Shown one piece after another: positions 17,919 through 35,076 of a DNA stretch of 64,000 nt. The stretch is from Alphaproteobacteria bacterium (lineage in GTDB: Bacteria > Pseudomonadota > Alphaproteobacteria > UBA9219). The stretch lies in contig JAMFSS010000009.1 of the NCBI GenBank assembly GCA_026225415.1, forward strand, positions 124,001-188,000, written 5' to 3'. A program made the position numbers and the translations under genes. Numbering within the stretch: position 1 is the first letter of the stretch; every line of letters begins with the position of its first letter. The notes beneath the pieces were generated by a model. The model had not been told where the DNA came from. It saw only the letters and a list, made by a program, of their open reading frames with translations, and ran no database searches.

Positions 17919-20085
17919 CACCTTTACTAACAGGACGATCTGGATTGATAAGCCCATAATGCTTTTTGAATTCTGCTAATGATGTCCCTTTCCAATGAGC
18001 AAGCCCCCTAATACCGTATCTGAAAGCCTTATCAATTTTTGCACCAGAATCCCATTCAACTATTGACCATTCATTATTGGCATCCTTGTCCCATAAAATT
18101 TTATCGCGCATGGAAAAATATCTGCCTGCCCCGTTAATCTCTAATTCCCGTTCGAAAAACATTTTTTGCAAATAGAGAACTCTTTCATCAGTAAGGCGTT
18201 TGGTCTCACTCTGCCGACTTATTTGCAGCCCATAATGCTCAAGAAAATTGGCAAGCGACATTCCCTTACCCTTCCAATGAGCAAGTCCACGTCCACCAGA
18301 GAAAAGCGCCGCATTAATATTTACACCAGACTCTTCGACTATGTACCATTGTTCGTTAGCATCCCTATCCCATAAAACTTTATCACGGTCAGAAAAATAT
18401 CTGCCTGCCCCGTTAATCTCCAATTCCCGTTTGAAAAACATTTGTTGCAAATACAGGATTTTTTCATCACTTAGGTGCTTAGCCTCACTCAATAAACTTA
18501 CTCGTAATCCATAATATTCGAGAAATTTAGGTACAGAAGAACCTTTCCAATGAGAAAGGCCTCGCCTTCCTTCCCGAAGGCTTTCGTCAATCATATAACC
18601 AGATTCACCTTCGACAATCACCCATTGACCATCACCATCCCTGTCCCACAAAATTTTGTCTTTTTGCGCGAAATACCTACCCACACCATTAATTTCTAAT
18701 TCATGTTCAAAGAACATTTTTTGTAGGTGCAAGATTCTATCATCACTGAGGTGTCTAGCCTCACTTCGCTGGCTAACTTGCAATCCATGATGTTCGAGGA
18801 ATCTGGCAAGTGTCATCTTTTTGCCTTTCCAATGGGAAAGACCACGCGCACCTTTGGCGAAGGCAGTATCAAGACCCGTGCCGGTTTCACCCTTAACCAC
18901 AATCCATTGCCCATTAACATCTTTGTCCCATAAAGTTTTATCTGACAAAGAAAAATATCTACCCGTACCATTGACTTCTAATTCACGTTCAAAGAACATT
19001 TTTTGCCAGTGAAGCACCTTGTCATCCGTAAGGAGTCGAGCTTCACTATGCAAACTTACGCGCAAACCTTGGTGCTCAAGGAATCTGGCAAGTGTCATAT
19101 TTTTATCTTTCCAATGGGAAAGACCACGCCTGCCATGTGTTAGAGCATCATTAATAGTCGATCCCGTTTCACCTTCCACCCTGCACCATTGCCCTTGGGC
19201 ATCCCTGTCCCACAAGATCTTATCTGTTTTCGCAAAATATTTGCCCTTACCCACGGTTTCAAGTTCATGCTCAAAGAACATTTTTTGTAAATGCAGAATT
19301 CTTTCGTCACTCAACACTCTATCAATAGATGCGACCCTTCCCAATAAAAGATCGGTTATTAGAGAAAGCCACGCACCCTCTTCATCATAATGAAGGACTT
19401 GAATATCTGAATTACTTTTTAATTCATTTTTTGTTGTTGATGCCCAAAATCCTAGCGGCTTGATAGATTGAGAAATAAATACCGCTTCACCAATTTGATC
19501 ACAGATAGCAATTTGCTTACCTAAACTCTGGATCTCAACAACAGTATAAGGCTCATTGCGCAACATATGAATAGCAACTACACCGCGATACACCCGGAGG
19601 TCATCGGCGCGAATACCTATTGTCAGTAAATTTGATATAAGTTCATTCGTTTTAGGTGCTGTTTGAAGTTTGAACTTTTTTTTGCCCTTACCAGGCAAAA
19701 CAGGAATATACGTTTCTGCCGATGGAATAATACAATCCTGGACAGACTGAATATCCGCACCGCCATTTTCGAGCAATTGCCAGATATTGTCAGAGAGGCT
19801 TTCGTGCCGCCGCTGCACAAAAGCAAGGAGATCAGCGATTGTCATACGATTTGTTGCGATATTTGCAGCTTCAGCAAACTGAATTTCAACCGCACGTGTA
19901 AAGGAAACCGCCGAATGTGTAGCCCAGTTACTCATAAAATTTTCGAGTTCAGTCAGTTTCTCGGATACCGCCAGCCCCGAAACTGCAGATAAATTATAGG
20001 CATGGATGGAGCGCCAAGCCTCCGTGCGCAATTCACGGTAAATCGTGATGATTTCAGCGGGAAGTGTTAATTCATTTCTTGGCAT
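17884..20085 (-). CDS. Large protein with five tandem ~93-residue repeats, function unknown
   Basis: 733 residues from ATG 20083-20085 (AAAGGA upstream). Residues 1-257 form a unique region, with a small domain around VYRGVVAIHML...ISQSIKPLGFWAST (165-217). Five tandem repeats then start at residues 258, 352, 446, 538 and 631. Each begins L(S/T)D(E/D)(R/K)(I/V)L, continues QKMFFE(R/H)ELE, YF..DK.LWD.D...W..V, and G.RGL(S/A)HWKG, and ends (T/S)LA.FLEH.GL. There is no signal peptide or transmembrane helix, and the tail is Pro/Lys-rich. The (G.RGL....SLA.(F/L)L) core resembles long repeat arrays I recall from planctomycete proteins of unknown role; this is a recollection, not a search result. 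The DNA is AT-richer than its neighbours. The 3' end overlaps the mobile mystery gene. Confidence 0.8.
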   Translation of the reverse strand: MPRNELTLPAEIITIYRELRTEAWRSIHAYNLSAVSGLAVSEKLTELENFMSNWATHSAVSFTRAVEIQFAEAANIATNRMTIADLLAFVQRRHESLSDNIWQLLENGGADIQSVQDCIIPSAETYIPVLPGKGKKKFKLQTAPKTNELISNLLTIGIRADDLRVYRGVVAIHMLRNEPYTVVEIQSLGKQIAICDQIGEAVFISQSIKPLGFWASTTKNELKSNSDIQVLHYDEEGAWLSLITDLLLGRVASIDRVLSDERILHLQKMFFEHELETVGKGKYFAKTDKILWDRDAQGQWCRVEGETGSTINDALTHGRRGLSHWKDKNMTLARFLEHQGLRVSLHSEARLLTDDKVLHWQKMFFERELEVNGTGRYFSLSDKTLWDKDVNGQWIVVKGETGTGLDTAFAKGARGLSHWKGKKMTLARFLEHHGLQVSQRSEARHLSDDRILHLQKMFFEHELEINGVGRYFAQKDKILWDRDGDGQWVIVEGESGYMIDESLREGRRGLSHWKGSSVPKFLEYYGLRVSLLSEAKHLSDEKILYLQQMFFKRELEINGAGRYFSDRDKVLWDRDANEQWYIVEESGVNINAALFSGGRGLAHWKGKGMSLANFLEHYGLQISRQSETKRLTDERVLYLQKMFFERELEINGAGRYFSMRDKILWDKDANNEWSIVEWDSGAKIDKAFRYGIRGLAHWKGTSLAEFKKHYGLINPDRPVSKGANPTPAKPACV
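17938..19314 (-). repeat. Five tandem ~280-bp coding repeats inside the 733-residue gene
   Basis: Units in gene direction: 19314-19033, 19032-18751, 18750-18475, 18474-18196 and 18195 to ~17938, with periods of 94, 94, 92 and 93 codons. Conservation is visible at the DNA level (for example the GAACATTTTTTG- and CCATTGA-type segments recur), pointing to duplication within the gene. Units 2 and 3 are closest to each other in the MTLARFLEHHGLQVSQ region. Confidence 0.85.
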
Positions 20086-26541: not shown

Positions 26542-29535
26542 TCAGCCTTTACCCATCACTTTGGAGGGATCGGCATGGGCGAAATTGATCAATTCCTGTG
26601 CCAATTCCTGTATCACCACCGATGTCGCGCCGGATTCGACTTCGCCCCGTTCGGTGCGCAACACCACACGGCGGCGTATTTCCTGCCGCGCCGAACCGCC
26701 GGGGAAATATTGCCCCAGAATGCGCCGCCCGCTGGCCGCGCCCAAGGCGGTGTAGAGGAGATTACGCAAAGTCACATCTTCAACCGAAGTGGACAGTGCC
26801 CACAGCTCGATCGGCCCCAGCGTATTCACCAGATGTTGTTCATACCGTCCTTCGTTGGTCGACAGCAAAAGCAAAACCGGCGCGCCTTCCTTGCGCGGCC
26901 CCGTCAAACGGTAACGCATGACCCAACGCGCGGTATCCGACAAACCGAAGCGTTGCGCCGTGTCGGAAATCGCGCGTTCGGAAACAGCCGTACCGCATAT
27001 CCAAACACCTGTGGCCAGATCAACCATGTCTTTGGTGAAATCGTCCAGCAGCTGGGACGCCAAAACAATCTGCACGCCCCATTTACGGCCTTCGCGTACA
27101 TCGCGGATAACCTGCGCGCGAACGGCATTCGTCTTGCTGGTGCGGTGGAATTCGTCAAAGCAAATACGTTTCGGCGTTTCGCGGATATCGCGGATACGCG
27201 CTTCGTGATAGGCGTGATATTTTTCCGGCACCGACCGCAACATATCGGGCCCCAGCCACCAGCTGCGCACCATCGCGTGACGCGCCAACATATACATGAT
27301 GGCGGTTTGGCGGTCTGCTATTGCGTCGCCTTGCGGCGCTACGTCTTGCAAATCGATCGCGGCAATACGCGCACCGCCGATATCGAAACGGGTGATGGAA
27401 GCCAGAATGGGGAATTCGCGAACGGCGGAGGCGATCATACGTTCAAACGCATGAATAACTGTTTCTGCCGATGCCCCGATTTGCGTTTCTTCTAATAACG
27501 CGCGAATTTGCGGACGACGGGCGGCGGTGACGGCATCCACCAAGGTGGGTGCCGCATGCCGTTGTGCAATCATCGCGGCGTGGTGGGCGCCGTGGTCAAA
27601 CAACGCATCGACGACATCCCACCAATAGGGATCAGATGGCAAATGAATATCATGCGTCGCAAGCGCTTCATCGACTTCGCTTTCGATGCGCACCAGATAA
27701 GGGCGCGGTTCGGTGTTCGCGCCGCTGTCGTCGCGCCAGCGATACATTTCGTCGATGCAAAGCCCGACCAGCTGGGTCATGCCGTCATAGGGTTCCATCT
27801 GCCCGGGCGAGGTACAAAGCAGCGTGATGAGTTCGGTTAAGTATGCGCGTTCTTCCGGCAAAGGATAACGACACCCCAATTGGGTATCGAAAGGATTGAC
27901 CGCGTAATCGGGTGTCATGCGCAATTTGAAATGCAGCGCTTCGTGGCGGCGTTCCAACGGCAACGCGTCGCGGATAAGCGAGATAAGACCCGATGAAGAC
28001 GGCCCGATATCAAGGATGGAGACAAACGGCAATTTGGTTGAACCGGACGTTAAAACCGTCCCCAAATTCAGCGCGTTCATCAAAACCGATTTACCCGCGC
28101 CCGGTTGCGCAAAGATGAGATCGAACCATAAGGATGTCAGGCTTGACCCCGATTGATAGGGCCAGATGCGGCCATCGGGCGAACGAAAAATAACCGACCC
28201 TTCGTTAAACGGCGAAGACGCGCGTTGCCATGGCAGCAATTTGACGGTTTCAAAAAACGGCATGATAACCGGCGGTGCCGTTGACGCGCACGCAATGCCC
28301 AAAGCCGATGACATGACCACCGCCAAGGGATCGCCGCCCGCGGATGAGGCCTGGCAATAACCCCAGGATTCCACCGCCTGTGTCATGGCGCCCAAACGCG
28401 TTTCCAATAATTTGCGGTCGGCCTGCGGCGCATAGGTTGCGAGCGACATGCGCATTTTCACGACAGGCTCGCTTTGCGATAATTTTTGCAATGCCAACAG
28501 CGATTCACGGATTTGCTTATTGACCTGATTGGTGAAACCCAACACGCCGGAGGCAAAAGCGCGGAAAGCAGAGCCTTGCGCGCCCGCGCTTTCGATCAGG
28601 AAAGAAATACGGAACGGGATATTGTTATCGATCAGGCGGTTTAACAGTTGGGGAAACGGCGAAGGTTCCGCCGGTGCCAAAGTCATATCGACCCCGCCCC
28701 ACAATAAATTGCCGATACGCACCGCCGTGGTTGAAACCTGCGCGGCATCGCCCACGCATAATTGTTGGCGGATGGGCGGCCATAAAAGATCGGATGCGTC
28801 ATTGCCGCCGCGTTGCGGCGCGCGCGGCAACAAAGGATCGCCCGGCAAATTGGCGCGCCATTCGTCATTGGCCAGATGGGGGTACAGGCTGCCGCGAATG
28901 GCGGCGAGGGCTTCGTGCGTCGATAGAACTTCGGCCTTCATCCCTATTTCTTCTAACGCGCTGGCGATTGATGAAACATAGCTTTTGTGGCGCGTACGCA
29001 TGGCATCCAACGCCTGCATCGGGAATTGCGCGCCGGGCGCCACGACCCATTTCTTTTTGCCGCGATGCTTGATGGCTTTTTCCAGATCGGTTTTGGTCAA
29101 GACCGATGGCCGCGTCCACAACACCAGATAGATTTCTTCATGCGCCATAAAACGCGCCAGATTGCGGCGGCGTTCATTCAGCAAATCCTCCAGATCGATA
29201 TCCATGGCGCGCATCGCGCTGCGGTTGGTTTTCATCACGCGGTCGATATCGGCGCCGACCATCGACGGGTCGCGCATGAAATAAACCTGCATCGCGTAAC
29301 CGGGGCGGTCGAACCGCGAACCCAGTTTCAACGTCGCCTGATCGATGATCCATTGATATTCGGCATCGCCGATAATTTGCCGCGCACCGAACAGTTTAAC
29401 CATGCTGACCAACGAACCGTCATCGGCCACAAGCGTCATGCCGTCATCCGCCGTTTCCAGACGAATGAAGGATTCCACCGGTTGACGCAGCCCCATCATC
29501 AGGGACGCTATGGTTTGATCAAAAATCTCAAGCAT
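26542..29535 (-). CDS. icmB: IcmB/DotO-type type IVB secretion ATPase
   Basis: 997 residues, close to Legionella IcmB (about 1009). The N-terminal half resembles VirB4/TraU-type ATPases. A Walker A motif QPGAGKSVLMNAL lies near residue 475, and a later KRICFDEFHRTSK serves as Walker B. The sensor-like block KWGVQIVLASQLLDDF completes the ATPase. IcmB is a cytoplasmic-face ATPase of Dot/Icm (IncI-like) type IV secretion or conjugation. No other dot/icm/tra gene adjoins it; lysS and phaR flank it, so the remaining components must be encoded elsewhere. Codon usage matches the core genes, which suggests a long-resident locus rather than a recent mobile insertion. Confidence 0.85.
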   Translation of the reverse strand: MLEIFDQTIASLMMGLRQPVESFIRLETADDGMTLVADDGSLVSMVKLFGARQIIGDAEYQWIIDQATLKLGSRFDRPGYAMQVYFMRDPSMVGADIDRVMKTNRSAMRAMDIDLEDLLNERRRNLARFMAHEEIYLVLWTRPSVLTKTDLEKAIKHRGKKKWVVAPGAQFPMQALDAMRTRHKSYVSSIASALEEIGMKAEVLSTHEALAAIRGSLYPHLANDEWRANLPGDPLLPRAPQRGGNDASDLLWPPIRQQLCVGDAAQVSTTAVRIGNLLWGGVDMTLAPAEPSPFPQLLNRLIDNNIPFRISFLIESAGAQGSAFRAFASGVLGFTNQVNKQIRESLLALQKLSQSEPVVKMRMSLATYAPQADRKLLETRLGAMTQAVESWGYCQASSAGGDPLAVVMSSALGIACASTAPPVIMPFFETVKLLPWQRASSPFNEGSVIFRSPDGRIWPYQSGSSLTSLWFDLIFAQPGAGKSVLMNALNLGTVLTSGSTKLPFVSILDIGPSSSGLISLIRDALPLERRHEALHFKLRMTPDYAVNPFDTQLGCRYPLPEERAYLTELITLLCTSPGQMEPYDGMTQLVGLCIDEMYRWRDDSGANTEPRPYLVRIESEVDEALATHDIHLPSDPYWWDVVDALFDHGAHHAAMIAQRHAAPTLVDAVTAARRPQIRALLEETQIGASAETVIHAFERMIASAVREFPILASITRFDIGGARIAAIDLQDVAPQGDAIADRQTAIMYMLARHAMVRSWWLGPDMLRSVPEKYHAYHEARIRDIRETPKRICFDEFHRTSKTNAVRAQVIRDVREGRKWGVQIVLASQLLDDFTKDMVDLATGVWICGTAVSERAISDTAQRFGLSDTARWVMRYRLTGPRKEGAPVLLLLSTNEGRYEQHLVNTLGPIELWALSTSVEDVTLRNLLYTALGAASGRRILGQYFPGGSARQEIRRRVVLRTERGEVESGATSVVIQELAQELINFAHADPSKVMGKG

Positions 29536-29700: not shown

Positions 29701-30480
29701 TTAAGCCTTATTCTTCGCCAGATCCGACAGCTGACGTTGCAAGGCCGCGATTTTATTCTGCACATCATCGCCGGTGACGGGATTTTGCGCGGCGGCTGCG
29801 CGGCTGGTTTCCACTGTCGGGATTTGCGTTACGCGCTTGCCCGCGATCGAGGGGGTAAAGGCCGCTTCTTCGGCTTCTTCCTGTTGCTCAAGCCTGGTTG
29901 ATTTTTTTTTAGCCGCCGGCGCTGGCTCGGCATCTTCATCCGTTTGCGCAACCGGGGCTTCTTCGGGCGGCGCGGAACCTTCTTCGGAAGAAGTCGTTGG
30001 GTTGCCTTCGGTGCCGGGCACCGCAAACGGCGTGAACATCTTCATCGTGCGTTCGAACATGGCCATGTTTTGCTTGCTCATCTGCTCCAGCGTATTGCCG
30101 AAGGGAAAAATGCCGCCAAGGGTCGTTTGGAAATAGTCGCGGATTTGATCCTGATTTTTCGTCAGCGATTGCATGCTGTGTTCCAGATATTTGGGCACAA
30201 GCCATTGCATATTGTCGCCATAGAAGCCGATCAGCTTGCGCAAGAAGGCGACGGGCAACAGATTTTGCCCCGATTTGCCTTCTTCTTCGACAATGATCTG
30301 GGTCAACACGCTGCGGGTAATGTCATCATTGCTTTTGGCGTCATAGACGTTGAATTCAATGCCTTTTTTAACCATTTCGGCGAGGTTTTCCAGCGTCACA
30401 TAAGTGCTGGTCGCGGTGTTATACAGCCGGCGATTGGCGTATTTTTTGATGACCACGGTTTCGTTGTTGGACGTGCTCAT
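29701..30480 (-). CDS. phaR: Polyhydroxyalkanoate synthesis repressor PhaR
   Basis: 259 residues. The N-terminal DNA-binding domain (VVIKKYANRRLYNTATSTYVTLENLAEMV, residues ~8-36) and the following PHB-accumulation domain (VLTQIIVEEEGKSGQNLLP...FLRKLIGFYGDNMQWLVPKYLE) are diagnostic. The second half is a low-complexity Ala/Pro/Glu segment with a short C-terminal coiled coil (KIAALQRQLSDLAKNKA). PhaR represses phasin and PHA genes until it binds nascent PHA granules. It is divergent from the PHA-type pair at 30.8-32.3 kb across an unusual repeat block, which places its natural target promoter next door. Confidence 0.92.
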   Translation of the reverse strand: MSTSNNETVVIKKYANRRLYNTATSTYVTLENLAEMVKKGIEFNVYDAKSNDDITRSVLTQIIVEEEGKSGQNLLPVAFLRKLIGFYGDNMQWLVPKYLEHSMQSLTKNQDQIRDYFQTTLGGIFPFGNTLEQMSKQNMAMFERTMKMFTPFAVPGTEGNPTTSSEEGSAPPEEAPVAQTDEDAEPAPAAKKKSTRLEQQEEAEEAAFTPSIAGKRVTQIPTVETSRAAAAQNPVTGDDVQNKIAALQRQLSDLAKNKA

Positions 30481-30563
30481 GGAAAAACCTTCCCGACTGG
30501 TTAAATTATGGTTAATTTCTGACAGGTTGCGGGGGGAAGTTCAAGGGGAAAGATTTGGAGGGG

Positions 30564-30587
30564 AGAGGAGGAGGAAGGGGGAGGAAG
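30564..30587. repeat. Left arm of a perfect 24-bp inverted repeat (purine-rich)
   Basis: AGAGGAGGAGGAAGGGGGAGGAAG, the exact reverse complement of 30772-30795. It is part of a purine-only tract running from about 30556 to 30650. Confidence 0.9.
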
Positions 30588-30600
30588 GAGGAGGGAAAGG

Positions 30601-30627
30601 AGTGAAGAGGAGTGAAGAGGAGTGAAG
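30601..30627. repeat. Decamer tandem repeat
   Basis: AGTGAAGAGG twice, then AGTGAAG: 2.7 copies inside the purine tract. Confidence 0.85.
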
Positions 30628-30668
30628 TGAGGGAAGTGAGAGAGGGAACGATGGCATTATCCCGCTCT

Positions 30669-30758
30669 CTTCTGCTTCTGCTTCTGCTTCTGCTTCTGCT
30701 TCTGCTTCTGCTTCTGCTTCTGCTTCTGCTTCTGCTTCTGCTTCTGCTTCTGCTTCTG
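30669..30758. repeat. Hexanucleotide microsatellite (CTTCTG)15
   Basis: Fifteen exact head-to-tail copies of CTTCTG (90 bp) and a partial sixteenth. It is enclosed by the 24-bp inverted repeat arms and by purine (left) and pyrimidine (right) tracts in the phaR/PHA-gene divergent promoter region. Open frames through it (poly-Leu on +, Gln-Lys on -) are judged artefacts. Confidence 0.95.
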
Positions 30759-30771
30759 CTTCTCCCTCCCT

Positions 30772-30795
30772 CTTCCTCCCCCTTCCTCCTCCTCT
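30772..30795. repeat. Right arm of the perfect 24-bp inverted repeat (pyrimidine-rich)
   Basis: Exact reverse complement of 30564-30587, ending 35 bases before the ATG of the next gene. Copy changes in the enclosed hexamer would alter the arm spacing by multiples of six. Confidence 0.9.
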
Positions 30796-30829
30796 TCCCT
30801 CTCCTCTCCTTTCATGCTTTCATACGCGC

Positions 30830-31222
30830 ATGACCGATAAACAACCGAATTTTTCCGAATTGAACCAGCTGGCGATCGAGGCTTGCGATATGTGGCAGGA
30901 GCATCTGTCGACACTCGCGCGTAACCCCGACGCGCGTTCCGAGCTGACCCGTTTTCTGGAGCCCCAGCGTCGTTTGTTCGCCGATTGGGCCAACATGATG
31001 CAGCAGAGCGCGAATGCCGCCCCCCAACAAGCCGCCACACAGCCCCATGACACAACAGAATCCACGCCCGCCCCAACCACCGCTTCACCGGCATCGGGCG
31101 GGGTTGCATCTGGCGACGACCCTCTCCGCGTTGCTCAGCTTGCCCTCCGCGTGGCCGAACTTGAAAAACGCCTCGCCAAGCTTGAGTCCAAATCTGCAAG
31201 CCCTCGCAAAACTCAGCAGTGA
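30830..31222 (+). CDS. Small helical protein, probable PHA synthase accessory/phasin-like
   Basis: 130 residues. The N-terminal half is amphipathic-helical (LNQLAIEACDMWQEHLSTLA...FLEPQRRLFADWANMMQQ). An Ala/Pro/Thr linker follows, and the last 25 residues form a leucine-heptad coiled coil (VAQLALRVAELEKRLAKLE). This layout is like PHA synthase subunits PhaE/PhaR(Bacillus) and phasin-type proteins that contact PhaC or granules. That is an inference from architecture and from the overlapping PHA-synthase-like gene. The gene overlaps the next one out of frame by up to 176 bases. The pyrimidine tract occupies its 5' leader, so no classical ribosome site is seen. Confidence 0.65.
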   Translation: MTDKQPNFSELNQLAIEACDMWQEHLSTLARNPDARSELTRFLEPQRRLFADWANMMQQSANAAPQQAATQPHDTTESTPAPTTASPASGGVASGDDPLRVAQLALRVAELEKRLAKLESKSASPRKTQQ

Positions 31223-32255
31223 ACATCCTGACCTGACACCCTATCTGACGCGCGAGATGGCTTTGCGCGCCCGCAATTTTATGCAGGGCATAACGGCGTA
31301 TCGTAAACATGCCACGCGGCGCGGCGATGAGTCCGCGCCCGTGATATGGCAATCGGGCAGCACGAAATTGCGCGATTACGCGCCGAAATCATTGGTTGCG
31401 CCTGTGGTGTTGGTGGTGCCGTCTTTGGTCAATCGTTTTACGATTATGGATGTGCAGCCCGACCATTCTTTTTTGCGCATGCTGGCGCTACACGGGTTTC
31501 GTCCCTTGGTGGTTGATTGGGATGAGCCGGGCGAGGCCGAAGAAAATTTCACCGCGGGTGATTATGTGACACAGCGTTTGATACCGGCGTTGCAAATCGC
31601 AGCGGCGGAAAGACCCGCGCATATTTTGGGTTATTGCATGGGCGGGTTGTTGGCATTGGCTTTGGCCACCCTTGTGCCCACCCAAGCGCGCAGCCTGTCT
31701 TTGTTGGCGACGCCGTGGGATTTTCATGCCGGTTTTGCCGCGACAGGACAAGAGGGCGCGGCGTTGGAAGAAAAATTAAAAGTCTTTTTGGCAGGTGACG
31801 CGTTTTTATCCGCCGAAGTGATGCAAAGCGTTTTTACATCGTTTCAGCCTTTGCATGCGTTCCGTAAATTCTCGACATTGGCCACGCAAATGGAAAAAGG
31901 CGAAGATGTTTCGCGTTTTGTTTTGACCGAAGATTGGTTGAATGACGGCGTGAATTTATCTGCGCCCGCCGCGCGTGAATGTTTTGGCGATTGGTGCGCG
32001 CGCAATGTGACCGCCGCGAATAAATGGCGCGTGGGCGGCGCGGTGATTGATCCGCGCAAGCTGACGCTGCCCGCCTATGTGGTGGTGCCGGGGCGCGACC
32101 GGATTGTGCCGCCGGAATCCGCCATGCCTTTGGCGCATGCTTTGTCGCATGCAATTCGGCACGAACCGATGATGGGGCATATTGGCATTATGGCGGGTAG
32201 CGATGCGCCGGAGCGTGTTTGGAAGCCTTTGGTGGGGTGGTTGGGGAAGCATTAA
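31047..32255 (+). CDS. phaC: PHA synthase-like alpha/beta hydrolase
   Basis: About 402 residues if ATG 31047 is used; the frame is open to 31014, and the true start could be later. AHILGYCMGGLLALALA carries the lipase-box variant G-x-C-x-G with the catalytic Cys of PHA synthases. VVVPGRDRIVPPES supplies the Asp and MMGHIGIMAGS the His, so the triad is complete. The segment ARNFMQGITAYRKH and PLVVDWDEPGEAEENFTAGDYV fit the PhaC core. It is shorter than class I PhaC and closer to class III or the PhaC-like proteins of Rhodospirillales. It polymerises hydroxyacyl-CoA into polyester granules. The 5' part overlaps the upstream small gene in another frame. Confidence 0.8.
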   Translation: MTQQNPRPPQPPLHRHRAGLHLATTLSALLSLPSAWPNLKNASPSLSPNLQALAKLSSEHPDLTPYLTREMALRARNFMQGITAYRKHATRRGDESAPVIWQSGSTKLRDYAPKSLVAPVVLVVPSLVNRFTIMDVQPDHSFLRMLALHGFRPLVVDWDEPGEAEENFTAGDYVTQRLIPALQIAAAERPAHILGYCMGGLLALALATLVPTQARSLSLLATPWDFHAGFAATGQEGAALEEKLKVFLAGDAFLSAEVMQSVFTSFQPLHAFRKFSTLATQMEKGEDVSRFVLTEDWLNDGVNLSAPAARECFGDWCARNVTAANKWRVGGAVIDPRKLTLPAYVVVPGRDRIVPPESAMPLAHALSHAIRHEPMMGHIGIMAGSDAPERVWKPLVGWLGKH

Positions 32256-33942: not shown

Positions 33943-35076
33943 ATGAACAGAATGGAAATCGCCGATAAGTTTTTTACCGTTGCGTGGGGCAAATTGCCGG
34001 GCGGCAATCCGTTGCAAGATGAACAGGCCGTTAAAGATTTTGGCAAAAACATTTTGCGCGCTTATGAAGCGCTTTCTGAAACAGACAAAGCGAAAGCCGA
34101 TGCGGTTTGGCAAAAATGGATGGGGAAAGCCAATGAGGCAAGCGTAGCGTTGCCCTATCAAACGCCTGCCGAACGTTTTAACGGCAATTTTCCTTCATTT
34201 GATTTTGAAGAATCGGACATTATTATCAACCATACGCTGGCGAACGCCATCGCGCAAAAAAACCCGACCCTGCTTTTGACCGGCGGCGGTACGGGCAGCG
34301 GCAAAAGCACTTTGTTGAGCAAGCTTATCAAAGAAGAAATGCCGCATGCCGTTTTGCTGGACCCCGATGAAGGGGTTCTGGAAAATCACGGGCCTTATTT
34401 ATGGGCGCGGGCGGTTTTGAAAATGGCGTTGGGCAAGCCCGTTGCGCCCGGCGCGTCTGTCGAAGAAATCATTGCACAACGCAACGAATGGCGTTTGCCA
34501 GCCTATGACATTTTCCGCGCCGCGTCGAACGCCATTAATACCGAGATTGCGAGCGAGGTCGTTGCCAAGGGTTATGACGCCGCGTTTGGTTTTACGGACA
34601 TCAAGGGTGATGGCTTTGCCGTTCAATTACCTGCCTATAAACAGGCGGGCTATAAACTGGATTATGTGGCCGTTTTCGCCCGTTTGGATGTGCGCAATGC
34701 GTTGGAAAACTATCGCGAGCGCCCGGCAGACCCCGCCGACCGCGTGAACAAGGTGCGTGATTTTATAGGCGCTTTGCCGGATTATCTCGAGCTTTGCGAC
34801 CGCACGCGCTTTTATATCGCGGATCACGGCCACCAGTTTACGCAGGTTGCAACAAGCGAAAAGGGCAAGGATGTTGTGCTTAACCACAGCCCTTCTATGG
34901 CCGCGATTTATGACATGATGTTGGTTGAGCAAACCCGCGCCGTTGTGAGCGACAAGCCAGAGATGGGCAAAGCGATTGGCGATAGTTTCAGGTTTTTGAT
35001 TGAGACATTCGAGGCGCCGCATGTGGCGGCCGCTTATCGCGAGCCGGTTGTGCCACCGTCAATATTGAAGCATTAA
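33943..35076 (+). CDS. Zeta-toxin-like P-loop kinase
   Basis: 377 residues, with AAGGA seven bases before the ATG. After a helical N-terminal ~100 residues comes LLLTGGGTGSGKSTLLSKL (~110-128), a Walker A typical of zeta-toxin/UDP-GlcNAc kinase and related P-loop kinases. It is followed by AVLLDPDEGVLENHGPY and TDIKGDGFAVQL (possible Walker B/substrate loops). Zeta toxins phosphorylate UDP-sugars and stall wall synthesis; here no epsilon-like antitoxin precedes or follows, and the protein is longer than classical zeta toxins, so it may be a different nucleotide/sugar kinase. Codon usage resembles core genes, unlike the AT-rich islet before it. Confidence 0.7.
   Translation: MNRMEIADKFFTVAWGKLPGGNPLQDEQAVKDFGKNILRAYEALSETDKAKADAVWQKWMGKANEASVALPYQTPAERFNGNFPSFDFEESDIIINHTLANAIAQKNPTLLLTGGGTGSGKSTLLSKLIKEEMPHAVLLDPDEGVLENHGPYLWARAVLKMALGKPVAPGASVEEIIAQRNEWRLPAYDIFRAASNAINTEIASEVVAKGYDAAFGFTDIKGDGFAVQLPAYKQAGYKLDYVAVFARLDVRNALENYRERPADPADRVNKVRDFIGALPDYLELCDRTRFYIADHGHQFTQVATSEKGKDVVLNHSPSMAAIYDMMLVEQTRAVVSDKPEMGKAIGDSFRFLIETFEAPHVAAAYREPVVPPSILKH

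Follow-up and report, generated by a model that had tools for sequence, protein, structure and literature searches.

Can a hexamer array set in a long hairpin between a repressor gene and its probable target act as a slippage-driven switch, or is such a block a by-product of mutation in a permissive gap? The question arises from a 64,000-nucleotide stretch of DNA from an uncultured Alphaproteobacteria bacterium (hereafter the window, to which all coordinates refer unless a locus is named), in which (CTTCTG) copies lie between phaR and the PHA genes. The genome of 2.02 Mb was sampled as stretches amounting to 0.79 Mb (about 39%), and the gap was compared with those of relatives.

The phaR-phaE gap and the anatomy of the hairpin block

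The phaR gene and a short PhaE-like open reading frame are divergent and separated by an intergenic gap of 349 bp. The features of the gap and its flanks, from left to right, are:

29701 to 30480, minus strand: phaR, PHA synthesis repressor of 259 aa (TIGR01848 at 149.8 bits, cut-off 109; PF07879 and PF05233)
30498 to 30545, minus strand: putative promoter/operator of phaR, a conserved block that has two TGGTTAA copies and ends in TTCAAG (alignment of seven species)
30556 to 30649, plus strand: purine-rich left arm (GGAGGGG...GGGAAC), the top purine tract in the 0.79 Mb of genome
30564 to 30587, plus strand: left half of a perfect 24-bp inverted repeat
30567 to 30594, plus strand: perfect 12-bp mirror repeat with a 4-bp loop
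30650 to 30664, plus strand: hairpin apex, with no purine or pyrimidine bias (from the fold)
30669 to 30763, plus strand: perfect (CTTCTG)15.8 array, its first part pairing with the left arm (repeat detection and fold)
30764 to 30812, plus strand: pyrimidine-rich right arm
30772 to 30795, plus strand: right half of the perfect 24-bp inverted repeat
30815 to 30823, plus strand: predicted extended -10 of phaE, TGC TTTCAT, six bases before the ATG (layout shared with relatives)
30830 to 31222, plus strand: short PhaE-like ORF of 130 aa (weak TIGR01834 match, E = 0.0033, far below the cut-off; position between phaR and phaC kept in relatives)
31104 to 32255, plus strand: class III-like PHA synthase PhaC (TIGR01836, E = 1.9e-39, below the cut-off)

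This gene order (phaR, PhaE-like, PhaC) recurs in many relatives. The start of PhaC is uncertain, the frame being open from an ATG at 31014, and may be a TTG near 31104. The PhaE-like and PhaC frames share more than 100 nt (31014-31222), a stretch in which the PhaC frame of congeners retains M(A/G)TTLSALLSLP-like residues. Elsewhere in the window, a 997-aa frame adjoining phaR (26542-29535, minus strand) gave a weak match to the type IV secretion ATPase TraC (E = 0.00022), a zeta-toxin-type kinase domain (PF06414) was identified in a 377-aa protein at 33943-35076, and a 282-bp unit is tandemly repeated in 2.4 copies at 18622-19295.

The perfect inverted repeat (AGAGGAGGAGGAAGGGGGAGGAAG, 30564-30587, complementary to 30772-30795) is nested in 39-nt arms that are 92% complementary (30558-30596 and 30763-30801), and the whole paired block is wider still, running from 30556 to 30812. 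Its left arm of 94 nt is one near-continuous purine tract, which is followed by a pyrimidine tract from about 30665 to 30812. The hexamer array within the latter measures 95 nt, is 100% perfect with zero mismatches, and includes 15 full copies that span 30669-30758. When the arms were shuffled within their own composition, none of 4000 trials reached a 24-bp match (mean 10.4-10.7, maximum 22), so the pairing exceeds what would arise as a by-product of purine/pyrimidine composition. The original prediction, which had described a perfect 24-bp repeat enclosing (CTTCTG)15, flanked by purine and pyrimidine tracts and located between phaR and the PHA genes, was borne out on all these points, with TIGR01848 over its cut-off on the left and the PhaE-like ORF and PhaC on the right.

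Folding of 30540-30840 as RNA gave -155.6 kcal/mol (z = -6.0), and the single-strand DNA fold gave z = -4.8. The predicted fold joins the initial hexamers of the array to the inner left arm in an interrupted duplex, from which the surplus hexamers bulge out; we infer that the array is an expanded piece of the pyrimidine arm. Formation of H-DNA calls for a mirror-symmetric purine tract of at least 10 bp with a short loop. The mirror repeat (GGAGGAGGAAGG-GGGA-GGAAGGAGGAGG) has 12 bp and a loop of 4, its significance being weak (25 of 1000 shuffles were equally good), and could by its sequence form such a structure. The folds and the mirror repeat agree with the cruciform or triplex potential earlier ascribed to this DNA, and slippage and non-B DNA are both plausible at the block. 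No other site with three CTTCTG copies in a row was found in the 2.02-Mb genome, no second perfect array of this size was present in the examined 0.79 Mb, and a DNA search of the arms against the rest of the genome returned no match except to each other.

Promoter elements, spacing and the reach of hexamer slippage

Both conserved promoter elements (30498-30545 and 30815-30823) lie outside the block. The element on the phaR side was the sole portion of the gap recovered by DNA search in congeners. Two copies of TGGTTAA, about 12 bp apart upstream of phaR, are conserved in seven species; this duplication is a candidate operator or promoter core, and TTCAAG is a possible -35 (CTTGAA on the minus strand). 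Ahead of phaE, a TGN-TNNAAT-N6-ATG layout was found in the window and in several relatives. Given an extended -10 only six bases before the ATG, phaE transcription probably starts at or next to the start codon, and a leaderless mRNA is predicted, a kind of transcript known in Alphaproteobacteria (PMC7566282). A generic sigma-70 scan of the region found no promoter; the promoter assignments are based on conservation, and the transcription starts are predicted.

The arrangement bears directly on the proposal that the block is a contingency locus, in which hexamer slippage would tune the divergent phaR and phaEC promoters via spacing, supercoiling or non-B DNA. The long perfect array, the strong fold with its mirror repeat, and a site flanked by the promoters of a regulator gene and of the genes that it probably controls are all in keeping with it. 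However, the array is at least 50 bp from either element, so that six-base steps leave the -35/-10 spacing unaltered, and it falls neither inside nor between the predicted elements of a promoter, nor in a coding frame. As the elements are outside the block, a change in copy number does no more than bring the two promoters closer together or further apart, and their separation varies freely: the phaR and phaE start codons are 349 bp apart here and about 122, 175 and 192 bp apart in congeners. Since relatives do not hold this spacing constant, its variation argues against tuning by six-base steps, and the block is not conserved in the 102 phaR loci compared. Overall, a contingency locus is unlikely. 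The earlier claim that slippage shifts promoter elements is not supported, given their position, and copy-number tuning of the PHA genes is likewise unsupported; a repeat that stands out in a promoter gap should not be taken for a switch if it does not include the promoter elements.

The array could instead act through PhaR itself, since it offers about 15 TGC in a row, one every six bases, as a graded operator or sponge. PhaR from Paracoccus and Rhodobacter is reported to bind TGC-rich regions, with an affinity possibly set by their number (PMC10888616), which favors this reading. Against it, the consensus proposed for Bradyrhizobium PhaR is TGCRNYGCASMA (PMC6201568), of which GCN3GC is an alternative published form, whereas the array gives GCN4GC in one direction without a GCA partner. 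Within 30481-30829 no TGC-N3-GCA and no TGCNNNGCA were found, and no match to the consensus with two mismatches was listed; the block itself carries neither TGC-N3-GCA nor TGCRNYGCASMA. The array is missing from relatives that have the same PhaR, and a PhaR half-site function is very unlikely. The interpretation first put forward is partly supported overall: the hairpin and H-DNA potential and the uniform array speak for it, and the shifting of promoter elements is not supported.

A coding role was likewise weighed for the small ORF 30651-30833 (MALSRS-Leu32-...), which overlaps the phaE start through ATGA and might encode a leader peptide. It has an open frame preceded by a purine-rich stretch, and hexamer steps would keep that frame; yet an open frame is expected of a pyrimidine tract, which has no stop codon in any frame. 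Moreover, the conserved -10 would put the phaE transcription start after this ORF, and no counterpart was noticed in the gap sequences of relatives, making a leader peptide extremely improbable. An ORF on the minus strand (30657-31352) was considered and rejected.

Gene-gap hairpins in this genome and in relatives

Purine or pyrimidine tracts scoring at least 22 were far more numerous in the 0.79 Mb (n = 25) than in a Markov shuffle (n = 1). All adjacent tract pairs within 250 bp (4/4) were ordered purine-then-pyrimidine, with no pair in any other order; the same order was seen in the adjacent pairs of congener G005 (2/2), and no tract pairs were seen in the samples of genomes G002 and G003. 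A looser scan yielded 15 purine-then-pyrimidine sites versus 5 in reverse order. With complementarity of at least 18, 5 purine-first and 3 reverse-order sites were obtained, of which the reverse-order ones are further long inverted repeats (L135 and L136). Long inverted repeats with pyrimidine-first arms in the same genome are located at L135 11121-11927, L136 17874-18018 and L143 7953-8098 (CCCTCTCCC...GGGAGAGGG; AACCTGTTCG...), and apparently represent different repeat families.

The fold-backs formed by purine/pyrimidine tracts sit in gene gaps, and their arm sequences are unrelated. The gene context of the other hairpins comes from a simple ORF rule, by which some fell within ORFs that are possibly spurious. 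The hairpin at L133 2868-2953 lies between convergent genes, and those of L127 and L163 lie between co-directional genes. These settings favor a reading of such hairpins as bidirectional terminators or insulators that stop antisense or read-through transcription between genes; the purine-then-pyrimidine order would also suit a hairpin whose 3' side is pyrimidine whichever strand is read. At the phaR-phaE gap, however, the genes are divergent, and no transcript calls for termination there. A scan of the block detected no terminator-like site, and the block lacks the GC-rich hairpin followed by a T run of intrinsic terminators, and the block is absent in close relatives, so that a terminator or insulator is improbable here.

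In congener G005 the phaR-phaE gap holds a different hairpin, composed of GGGACTA-like units, with diverged copies elsewhere in that genome; in G022, from the same family but another genus, it holds a GGATTCA-type hairpin, with several copies elsewhere. An inverted-repeat scan of G003 revealed hairpins of AATGTAG/AATGGAA type, located away from this gap. The hairpins of congeners are built of short, often seven-base, repeats. Across 102 phaR loci, an ungapped scan singled out just two gaps with a clear long inverted repeat, this one and that of G022; its count of three is a lower bound that includes one weak, chance-like match, and the imperfect hairpin of G005 is missed by such a scan. The block is a member of a lineage-specific class of gene-gap hairpins, in which the architecture (purine arm first) is kept and the sequence is not.

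The lineage repeatedly evolves long gene-gap hairpins with the same purine/pyrimidine order and unlike sequences. It is a good natural system in which to ask if palindromes of this kind simply result from slippage and fold-back replication, or are maintained for the DNA structure that they form. The fixed order, together with the recurrence of unlike hairpins in the gap of two relatives, could reflect selection for structure rather than drift. In the stronger form of this idea, which we regard as decidedly unlikely, purine-then-pyrimidine hairpins would be a selected class whose sequence turns over fast while structure and polarity are kept; a cruciform or triplex would insulate neighboring promoters from each other's supercoiling, and repeat number would be a slowly changing setting.

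Origin of the block and comparison with known repeats

The block is probably a mutation-generated extragenic palindrome with little or no promoter role, and it looks more like mutable filler than a tuned switch. As such a palindrome, with low-complexity and partly tandem-repeated arms, it would fill a non-conserved gap between conserved divergent promoters, and would have grown by strand slippage in short repeats and by fold-back events in which one arm served as template for the other. Slippage would recently have expanded the pyrimidine arm to give the (CTTCTG) run, whose 100% uniformity is as expected of recent or ongoing slippage. Persistence may be explained by a gap that tolerates changes in length and by the lack of a detectable SbcD hairpin nuclease, for which no match was found in this genome and none over the cut-off in the 29 genomes searched. 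SbcCD cuts long hairpins in E. coli, where an interrupted palindrome of 246 bp folds into one each time it is replicated (PMC3315005). As SbcD went unreported in the Caulobacter control as well, the lack of it does not set the hairpin lineages apart and would be permissive, not causal. Loss of mismatch repair as the cause of the array was not supported, MutS being present in the genome. The effect on phaR and phaE would probably be small, consisting at most of promoter separation and local supercoiling. We infer, in sum, an origin by slippage and fold-back, ongoing instability and a weak regulatory effect.

REP elements, which are mobilized by RAYT transposases, are also extragenic palindromes. 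A RAYT/REP origin was rejected, given that this genome (G000) has neither a cognate Y1 transposase (no PF01797 match) nor near-identical dispersed copies. The TM-ECO intrastrand triplex motifs are intergenic, purine/pyrimidine and triplex-capable, and have been linked to local instability (PMC4666352); they differ in their fixed layout of 9-nt C-rich, G-rich and G-rich segments, whereas here a 12-bp mirror lies inside a much longer hairpin. The TAACTGA heptamers of Beggiatoaceae (PMC4679880) resemble our case as lineage-specific intergenic short tandem repeats, but are direct repeats of one unit and not hairpins.

The closest known kind is that of the intergenic heptamer repeats and inverted pairs of Xanthomonas. 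The heptamers are GGGAATC in Xanthomonas and GGGGA(C/T)T in Nostoc, each of two Xanthomonas genomes has 70-75 convergent pairs arranged as inverted repeats, repeat length varies strongly between close species, and no function has been found (PMC4692102). In contrast to these, the block has near-pure purine/pyrimidine arms that consist of mixed purine repeats, the unit of its long array is a hexamer and belongs to the pyrimidine arm (CTTCTG, at a single locus) instead of a GGGAATC-like heptamer with many copies per genome, the hairpins of this genome share no unit, and the block is without dispersed copies; its position between divergent genes is under-represented for the Xanthomonas repeats. 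As in Xanthomonas and Nostoc (PMC4692102), it is made of short, G-rich tandem repeats in a gene gap, and, as in Xanthomonas, these are convergently paired with the purine/G-rich arm first.
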